Of a stretch of 35,146 nt of DNA, positions 3,611-7,095 are shown piece by piece; the first letter of the stretch is position 1, and each line of letters opens with the position of its first letter. The notes under the pieces are model-generated. The model saw only the letters and a program-made list of their open reading frames with translations. It did not search any database and had not been told where the DNA came from. The position numbers were made by a program, and so were the translations under genes. Source of the DNA: Candidatus Roizmanbacteria bacterium RIFCSPHIGHO2_12_FULL_38_13 (GTDB lineage: Bacteria > Patescibacteriota > Microgenomatia > UBA1406 > GWC2-37-13); assembly GCA_001789555.1 (NCBI GenBank), contig MFZZ01000004.1, positions 1 through 35,146 of the forward strand, in the 5' to 3' direction.

Positions 3611-4771
3611 ATGAAAATCGCATTAGTGCACGATCAGCTTCAGGAGTTTGGCGGCGCCGAACGGGTACTTGTTGCGCTAAAAAAAATCTTCCCTGAGGCC
3701 GATGTTTATACCTCATTCTACAATCCGGATAGCCTGGGAATGCATGCTAAGAAATTCGAGGGCTGGAAAATCTACACATCATGGGCAGACAAAGTGCCTT
3801 TTCTGAAAAAACTATACTCTCCACTTCGATTTATAACACCATATATATGGGAGTCATTTAATTTCAATAACTACGATTTAGTCATCTCTTCTGCCGGATC
3901 ATATATGTGCAAAGGCGTGATCACTTTGCCCAAAACCAAACACATCTGTTATCTCCATCACCCACCGCGTTATCTTTATGGATATGAAACAGCGATCGAA
4001 TGGCAAAGGTACTGGCCTATCCGAGTTTATGCAAATATTATCAATAAGCCACTTCGAAAATGGGATTATCTTTCATCACAGAGAGTCGATCATTTTATAG
4101 CAAACTCCGAGGAGACAAAAAAACGCATTCAGAAATTTTACCGCCGTGATGCAAAGGTGATCTACCCACCGGTGACTATTCCTGATGAATTCAAACTTGT
4201 CATCCCCGACTCCGATCGGGGATCCAGTAAAAATCTGGATTTCCTCTTTCGTGGGAATGACACTAACTACTATATCACCACCTCCCGCCTTGCTCGAGCA
4301 AAACACGTCGAAGTACTTATAAAAGCCGCAAACAAAGAAAAATTTAATCTTAAAATAATTGGCACTGGACGCGATGAAGAATTTTTGAAAAGTATTGCCG
4401 GAAAAAATGTCGAGTTCCTTTCAAATTTAAAAGATGAAGAATTTAAAGAAGTTTATAAAAATGCCAAAGCATTTCTTTTTGCCTCGGTTGACGAGGAGTT
4501 TGGCATCGCGCCTGTTGAGGCGATGGGATACGGTATTCCAGTGATTGCTTATGCGTCTGGCGGCGTGAAAGAAACTGTGATTGACGCTAAAAACGGATAT
4601 TTGTATGACGAGCTTAATGAAAACTCACTTATCAATAAAATAAAAATGCTTAATGCGCTTTCTAAAAACGAGTACTTAACTATGAGAAACAATGCCCGAA
4701 GTTCTGCGGAAAAATATACTTTTGATATTTTTAAGGAAAATATTGTAAATTTCACCCGATCACTAAAATAA
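3611..4771 (+). CDS. Family 4 glycosyltransferase with in-frame repeat insertion
   Basis: A 386-residue GT-B enzyme, expected to be cytoplasmic or membrane-associated and to transfer a sugar from a nucleotide donor. N-terminal domain: the glycine turn GGAER (14-18) and the HICYLHHPPRYLYG block (111-124). C-terminal domain: TTSRL (223-227) and the E295-x7-E303 motif inside DEEFGIAPVEAMG, the donor-binding signature of GT4. Residues 197-217 are encoded by a 63-bp palindromic repeat (4199-4261) that lands in the interdomain linker and keeps frame, so the enzyme can plausibly still fold. The start is supported by an extended -10 box ending 6 nt before the ATG. The partner glycan is unknown; mannosyl- or rhamnosyltransferase are possible. 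Confidence 0.9.
   Translation: MKIALVHDQLQEFGGAERVLVALKKIFPEADVYTSFYNPDSLGMHAKKFEGWKIYTSWADKVPFLKKLYSPLRFITPYIWESFNFNNYDLVISSAGSYMCKGVITLPKTKHICYLHHPPRYLYGYETAIEWQRYWPIRVYANIINKPLRKWDYLSSQRVDHFIANSEETKKRIQKFYRRDAKVIYPPVTIPDEFKLVIPDSDRGSSKNLDFLFRGNDTNYYITTSRLARAKHVEVLIKAANKEKFNLKIIGTGRDEEFLKSIAGKNVEFLSNLKDEEFKEVYKNAKAFLFASVDEEFGIAPVEAMGYGIPVIAYASGGVKETVIDAKNGYLYDELNENSLINKIKMLNALSKNEYLTMRNNARSSAEKYTFDIFKENIVNFTRSLK
4199..4261. repeat. Palindromic repeat inserted in frame within a GT4 gene
   Basis: This 63-bp element starts GTCATCCCC and ends GGGAATGAC (inverted, one mismatch). Inside are a perfect 8-bp stem ATCCCCGA/TCGGGGAT with 6-nt loop and a 6-bp stem ATCCAG/CTGGAT. The same GTCAT-type ends occur in the repeats at 5689 and 7004. 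Its length is exactly 21 codons and it has no stop in the gene's frame. Confidence 0.8.
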
Positions 4772-4805
4772 ATCCTTCGTGCTTTATGTTTTATAAAAAA
4801 TATTT

Positions 4806-4837
4806 CAAGTTTCAAGTTATAAGTTACGAGTTGCGAG
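4806..4837. repeat. AAGTT/GAGTT direct-repeat tract
   Basis: The gap before mutM contains near-repeats of the word (C/T)AAGTT, ending GAGTTGCGAG. A similar AAGTTGCGAG occurs at 1539-1548. It is low-complexity sequence with no clear function. No strong promoter or ribosome-binding site is seen for mutM in this 69-bp gap. Confidence 0.4.
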
Positions 4838-4840
4838 AAT

Positions 4841-5680
4841 ATGCCCGAACTACCTGAAGTCGAATCAATCCGAATGTACCTATCGGCTAATATTGTCGGG
4901 AAAACTTTGCAAGGGGTTGAAATCCTTGAGAAAAAAATGTTTTTTGGTGATCCGAAAAAAATCACCGGTAAAAAAATCATCGCCATACTTCGCAGCGGCA
5001 AAGTACTCACAATACAGTTTGAAAATAAACTTTATCTGAGTACACATCTAAAGCTTTCCGGACAGATTTTATATTCGCCAGATAAAAATAAGCCGATATT
5101 TAAAAATACTATTCCGCGAGCAAACACCAACAAAATGCCCGGTAAAACAACAAGAATAATTTTGAACTTTGATGATGATTCGGTAATTTATTTTAATGAT
5201 CTTCGAAAATTCGGCTGGATGAAACTTTCTGACAAACCAGCACATGCAAAAGGCACGGATGTTTTATCCAAAGATTTTACTTTTAAATACTTTGAAAAAG
5301 CGATTGCTAAAACTGCTCGGCCAATAAAAGTTGTGATCATGGATCAGGAAAGAATGGCGGGAATTGGAAATATTTACGCAAATGATGCTTTGTGGCTCGC
5401 GAAAATCCATCCTGCAAGAAAATGTAATACTCTAACTTTGCAAGAAAAAAAAATTCTTTACCGATCCATCTTAGATACAATCAAAGAAGGACTAAAATAT
5501 AAAGGCTCATCTGCCCATGATGAACTTTATTTATTACCCGATAGTTCAAAAGGTTCATATCAAAATCACTTCAAAGCTTATCATCAACATGGAACTCCAT
5601 GTAAACGCTGTAAAACGATCATGAAGCGTATGGAACTCGGCGGAAGAGGGACTTTCTTTTGTCCACACTGTCAGAAATGA
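4841..5680 (+). CDS. mutM: Formamidopyrimidine-DNA glycosylase
   Basis: A 279-residue base-excision repair enzyme that removes 8-oxoguanine and formamidopyrimidines and nicks the abasic site. The N-terminus is PELPEVE: after Met removal, P2 is the Schiff-base nucleophile and E3 the acid. K54 in RSGK matches the conserved catalytic lysine, and HLKLSGQ (69-75) is the usual core block. The helix-two-turn-helix segment reads MAGIGNIYANDALW. The C-terminal zinc finger is intact (C254-x2-C257, C274-x2-C277) with R269 in the beta-hairpin. Length is standard. It follows the GT4 gene by 69 bp on the same strand and converges on the MacAB-type operon across a palindromic repeat. Confidence 0.97.
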   Translation: MPELPEVESIRMYLSANIVGKTLQGVEILEKKMFFGDPKKITGKKIIAILRSGKVLTIQFENKLYLSTHLKLSGQILYSPDKNKPIFKNTIPRANTNKMPGKTTRIILNFDDDSVIYFNDLRKFGWMKLSDKPAHAKGTDVLSKDFTFKYFEKAIAKTARPIKVVIMDQERMAGIGNIYANDALWLAKIHPARKCNTLTLQEKKILYRSILDTIKEGLKYKGSSAHDELYLLPDSSKGSYQNHFKAYHQHGTPCKRCKTIMKRMELGGRGTFFCPHCQK

Positions 5681-5688
5681 AAATAATC

Positions 5689-5791
5689 GTCATCCCGAAT
5701 TTATTTCGGGATCTAGATGCTGAAACAAGCCTGTCCTGAAGAGGAGATGCCGAAACTAGTTCGGCATGACGAGTTCAGGATTCAGCATGAC
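5689..5791. repeat. Compound nested palindromic repeat between mutM and macB-like gene
   Basis: It starts with GTCATCCCGAA and ends with CAGCATGAC. First a perfect 8-bp hairpin, ATCCCGAA/TTCGGGAT with loop TTTAT. Then three stems nested like brackets: ATGCTGAA...TTCAGCAT outermost, TCCTGAA...TTCAGGA inside it, and ATGCCGAA/TTCGGCAT in the centre. It lies between two convergent genes, so it could also end transcription from both sides, though no U-run is present. Confidence 0.75.
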
Positions 5792-7003: not shown

Positions 7004-7095
7004 GTCATCCTGAATTTATTTCAGGATCTTAATGTCATTCTCGCGAAAGCGGGAATCCAGAAATAAATGGATCCCGGATCAAGTCCGGGACGACG
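7004..7095. repeat. Three adjacent palindromic repeat units inside the ABC operon
   Basis: Unit A (7004-7029) is GTCATCCTGAA-TTTAT-TTCAGGAT, differing from the unit at 5689 by a C-G to T-A swap of one paired position. Unit B (7034-7060) has stem ATTCTCGC/GCGGGAAT closed by a GAAA tetraloop. Unit C (about 7068-7095) has stem CCCGGA/TCCGGG. They fill the gap between ATPase and permease genes. Confidence 0.75.

Follow-up and report, generated by a model that had tools for sequence, protein, structure and literature searches.

The window analysed here is the stretch of 35,146 nt at positions 1 to 35,146 (forward strand) of contig MFZZ01000004.1 from Candidatus Roizmanbacteria bacterium RIFCSPHIGHO2_12_FULL_38_13, and it contains a GT4 glycosyltransferase gene that carries a palindromic repeat in frame (Table 1). 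Pfam analysis of this ORF revealed Glyco_transf_4 at residues 13-188 and Glycos_transf_1 at residues 216-363, with the insert between both domains, which bears out the first-pass annotation in placing it in the linker of a GT-B enzyme. The nearest solved sequence is wbaZ-1. Homologues were found in 72 of the 72 family genomes searched, and most orthologues are 49-72% identical to the window protein.

Reading of the insert gave a 63-nt sequence, GTCATCCCCGACTCCGATCGGGGATCCAG-TAAAAAT-CTGGATTTCCTCTTTCGTGGGAATGAC, which ends in GTCAT...ATGAC and consists of two hairpin repeats facing inward with a short AT-rich spacer between them. The gene frame runs through it without a stop, and it corresponds to residues 197-217. 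An in-frame palindromic repeat within a glycosyltransferase had been proposed at first sight, and the sequence, the ORF, the Pfam domains and the genome-wide repeat family described below all confirm it. The same proposal spoke of two clean stems, which holds for the left half (a perfect stem of 8 bp with a loop of 6 nt) and fails for the right half, whose stem has decayed to 6 of 8 pairs. The insert folds more strongly than its dinucleotide shuffles, with a z-score of -2.4 under DNA parameters (3 of 200 shuffles were as good) and of -3.1 under RNA parameters.

Table 1. Positions of the glycosyltransferase gene, its insert and related repeats in the window (R1, covariance model of the half-element).
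Feature	Position	Strand	Description	Evidence
GT4 glycosyltransferase gene with insert	3611-4771	+	386 aa, GT-B fold	Pfam, homologues, AF2
REP dimer (two inward-facing halves)	4199-4261	+	encodes VIPDSDRGSSKNLDFLFRGND, interdomain linker	sequence; R1 finds both halves
Left half of the dimer	4199-4227	+	tag GTC, stem ATCCCCGA/TCGGGGAT, tail CCAG	R1 37.8 bits, E 3e-9
Right half of the dimer	4235-4261	-	inverted, decayed stem	R1 32.1 bits, E 3e-7
Intergenic family member	5689-5770		halves 5689-5716 (+) and 5745-5770 (-)	R1 38.6 and 20.7 bits
Intergenic cluster	7004-7094		three half-elements, 7004-7029 (+), 7034-7060 (+) and 7067-7094 (-)	R1 21.1, 37.4 and 24.1 bits

The insert belongs to a dispersed repeat family. 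Searching the 1.2 Mb genome with the pattern GTCATYCYNN{4,24}RGRATCYAG obtained 44 matches to half-elements (reversed control, 0), and the covariance model R1 found about 140 halves in the same genome, which formed 87 clusters after joining. Because the pattern had 44 matches against none when reversed, and R1 found about 140, the family is not a product of chance; the genome holds dozens of copies, and the likeness noticed earlier to the intergenic repeats at 5689 and 7004 is substantiated by the R1 matches there. In the element at 5689, an outer pairing GATGCTGAA...TTCAGCATGAC extends to 5793. Most multi-hit clusters have the orientation +-, and 50 clusters are at least 45 nt long. Typical copies have a stem of 8 bp and a loop of 4 or 5 nt; GTCAT and ATC are invariant in an alignment of 29 half-elements, and the base 5' of the GTC tag in the copies of this genome is C in 90, T in 39, A in 3 and G in 0. 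The tail is CCAG or CTAG, a finding partly built in, as the search pattern demanded CYAG. Across the family, the pattern search detected the element in 51 of 72 genomes, with a maximum of 110 matches in genome G061.

Some elements (L004, L005, L009, L014 and L029, on contigs 4, 5, 9, 15 and 34) lie within a larger repeated unit, and a promoter-like flank TTGACA...TATGAT was seen in this unit.

In the features tested, the element agrees with CGTC-tagged REPs, the superfamily that includes Rickettsia RPE-4 and RPE-6 (Di Nocera et al. 2013, PMC3733652); the link to these two RPEs is by way of the published superfamily placement. CGTC-tagged REPs have a stem of 8-9 bp led by complementary AT, a loop of 4-5 nt and a tail that is mostly CCA, and are reported from Proteobacteria, Chlorobi, Bacteroidetes, Spirochaetes and Thermotogae (PMC3733652). 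The present family shares with them the unpaired CGTC/TGTC tag, the AT-led stem of about 8 bp, the short loop, the CCA-type tail, the mostly head-to-head dimers, the intragenic copies and the lack of any dedicated transposase found. It differs in its host, which belongs to Patescibacteria rather than to one of those five phyla, and the left loop of the window copy has 6 nt, not 4-5. With Rickettsia palindromic elements it has in common ATGAC-ended palindromes that lie in frame in conserved genes, at solvent-exposed positions, with differing groups at one site of orthologues; the lineage is another one, and recurrent gain fits better here than a single origin. The Rickettsia-like behaviour suggested in the first-pass annotation is supported by in-frame insertion in about 20 conserved genes, and the likeness extends to the Y-GTC tag, stem and tail of the copies. 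REPINs and GTAG REPs with RAYT are likewise short inverted dimers, dispersed in the genome and probably non-autonomous, whereas the tag here is YGTC rather than GTAG, and in relatives the elements do not border the RAYT-like genes.

No match to Y1_Tnp (PF01797) was found in this genome (89% complete), and near the 30 Y1_Tnp genes examined in relatives there was one weak model match and no more. No association of the family with a transposase was detected, Y1_Tnp alone being searched, and neither the GTAG tag nor the flanking RAYT of a RAYT-mobilised REPIN was present. Copy number of the element correlates weakly with PF01797 count (rho = 0.40, p = 5e-4, 72 genomes, uncorrected for kinship). 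RAYT-type Y1 mobilisation was rejected as lacking support, in view of the absence of such a match from this genome and the unflanked genes of relatives; given the weak correlation, a Y1 transposase may still act in trans. Lengths and boundaries of the elements are variable, and no clean case of target-site duplication was found among near-identical copies, groups with common flanks being larger duplicated units.

ORFs of at least 90 aa contain 26 of the clusters. In 22 of these the insertion is in frame, and 20 Pfam-supported genes for conserved proteins are affected, as is known of RPE-4/-6-type elements. These genes are purH, the window GT4 gene and a GT4 paralogue, aroC, tkt, leuS, a SpoU methylase gene, ychF (two), guaA, tatD, the gene for an ATP-citrate-synthase-like subunit, recJ, comEC, trmD, two genes for Wzy_C proteins, rplA (N-terminal extension), polX, and genes for a heavy-metal P-type ATPase and for a SAM methyltransferase (two). 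The clusters often fall within one Pfam domain, and the elements are read in three codon phases. Clusters outside ORFs, judged by eye, appear intergenic with no gene obviously broken. Frameshift-broken genes were considered as a further class, and 19 cases with flanking ORFs resembled ordinary gene boundaries by eye.

The window copy is exactly 21 codons long and free of stops, as first noted, and this does not describe a general route to keeping the frame. Other in-gene dimers measure 55, 56, 58 or 65 nt, and a rule of lengths in multiples of three was rejected, the in-ORF dimers leaving remainders of 0 (3 dimers), 1 (5) and 2 (6) on division by three, one doubtful ORF included. Since in-gene dimers do not as a rule have a length divisible by three, the junction bases must also set the frame, and chance had a part in the window copy being exactly 21 codons long. 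At one ychF site the insertion is a plain gain of 12 codons relative to all 29 orthologues aligned. A third insert in ychF (L205), SSSAKASERRG, is of a non-GTCAT type and has no counterpart in any aligned orthologue.

The linker of the GT4 enzyme has received elements in many relatives. In 76 GT4 homologues, 14 of the 16 in-gene model matches, from 11 genes, fall in the interdomain linker, which makes up about 4% of the length; the counts are given without a P-value, since the matches are paired and some of the genes are closely related. The two remaining matches lie elsewhere, in paralogues. Different GTCAT elements occupy the linker of orthologues from G001, G061, G065/G064, G045, G071 and G017 (G017 partial), and palindromes of a second type, GTCACCCT...AGGGTGAC with its kin, occur in the GT4 linker of genus g9 (L061, L064, L067, L106 and L123). 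In this genome, the GT4 paralogue L135 (G000:C9:18588-19763, minus strand) carries two elements, a lone repeat at about residue 137 and, in the same interdomain linker, a dimer that has diverged. The same pattern of recurrent inserts was found in the trmD loop and the ychF linker.

The linker of the window protein has 31 residues, against 13-16 unrelated residues in most orthologues. The expectation that homologues lack exactly residues 197-217 holds only roughly, as the linkers of most orthologues are unrelated and several contain other palindromes. No homologue was found that has the same 21 residues without the repeat DNA. Because the insert-free orthologues of the window gene are only 60-70% identical proteins with unrelated linkers, there is no base-exact empty site for this gene. 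Repeat-free orthologue linkers often consist of short tandem repeats; in those of L054, L124, L112 and L047, the tandem repeats (AAGTTACAAGTTAC and CTCGTTAACTCGTTAAC) resemble the intergenic filler of the window at 4803-4842.

In an AF2 model of the GT4 protein (48 sequences), the mean pLDDT is 91 and the pTM 0.90, and residues 201-216 are the sole segment with a pLDDT below 50. The model thus predicts that the enzyme fold is intact and that the repeat-encoded part is a disordered loop. Very probably, the insert is a non-autonomous CGTC/TGTC-tagged REP dimer, head-to-head and REPIN-like, which is tolerated in frame in a flexible linker. A dispersed dimer would have reached the linker between two Rossmann-like GT4 domains, and the protein would tolerate it because insert and junctions keep the frame, introduce no stop and lie in a flexible surface segment. 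The tolerated insert, presumably close to neutral, would be translated as a disordered extension of the hinge. Selection may purge gene-breaking insertions throughout the genome while in-frame ones stay in tolerant loops, and the permissive loops of orthologous proteins would take up elements repeatedly.

An adaptive module, in which selection retains the hinge residues or an mRNA hairpin for their effect on the motion of the enzyme or on translation, might be suspected from the repeated use of the same hinge in many genera. We consider it improbable, as the encoded sequences and lengths vary among genomes, the segment is predicted to be disordered, most orthologues are without it, and tolerance accounts for the recurrence equally well.

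Very improbable, in our judgement, is a single ancient insertion into the linker that diverged by descent into the present palindromes and was lost in most lineages. This second reading has been offered for Rickettsia RPE-4/-6/-7; in R. japonica, orthologues carry different RPE groups at identical sites, and a common origin was preferred there, with hotspots not excluded (PMC3767692). Here, descent does explain L045 and L126, which share one element. The linker elements vary from lineage to lineage, several having strong and mutually different stems, and the sister genes L042/L044 and L059/L060 are unlike in element presence. When the GTCAT state was mapped on a tree from which the linker had been omitted, 7 gains or losses were obtained, at least 6 of them forced by supported branches; in this count alone gains are indistinguishable from losses. 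Repeated insertion is favoured because the element is present in one sister gene and missing from the other, and because paralogues, as well as GTCACCCT...AGGGTGAC palindromes, occupy the same linker. That the GT4 gene is inactivated and its open frame across the repeat mere luck is scarcely credible: palindrome insertion is usually gene-breaking and a stop-free frame can arise by chance, as a general argument, whereas the remainder of the ORF is undamaged, reaches 72% identity to orthologues and has a predicted structure with pLDDT above 90, and the same in-frame pattern is seen in leuS, trmD, tkt, rplA and other core genes.

Beyond the REP dimer tolerated in frame, a wider process may be envisaged, to which we give only a low probability: protein linkers in this Patescibacteria family might be rebuilt again and again by mobile palindromes and other intergenic repeats, loops such as the GT4 hinge, the YchF linker and the TrmD loop being refilled by successive unrelated repeats, perhaps through target preference besides tolerance. 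If so, segments of core proteins would turn over by insertion and not by point mutation.

Palindromes that code for protein have been described chiefly in Rickettsia and Wolbachia, and only here and there in other bacteria rich in REPs. The present element is of a known kind, in a lineage (CPR/Patescibacteria) for which no earlier report of such elements was found in the open-access literature, and its recurrence at permissive sites is unusually clear. In this small-genome lineage, about 20 conserved genes are decorated and dozens of relatives have been sequenced for comparison, which makes it testable whether shared sites are hotspots or reflect one old insertion, and what the fate of the added peptides is. 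The first-pass idea that such elements supply new protein segments is correct in the literal sense, with no sign that the segments are useful. Caution is also needed, as residues gained by such proteins may stem from repeat DNA rather than from adaptation.

The two Wzy_C (O-antigen ligase-like) paralogues of this genome, L022 and L202, carry their elements in one shared loop, and an O-antigen ligase gene of Rickettsia is listed as carrying RPEs (PMC3767692).
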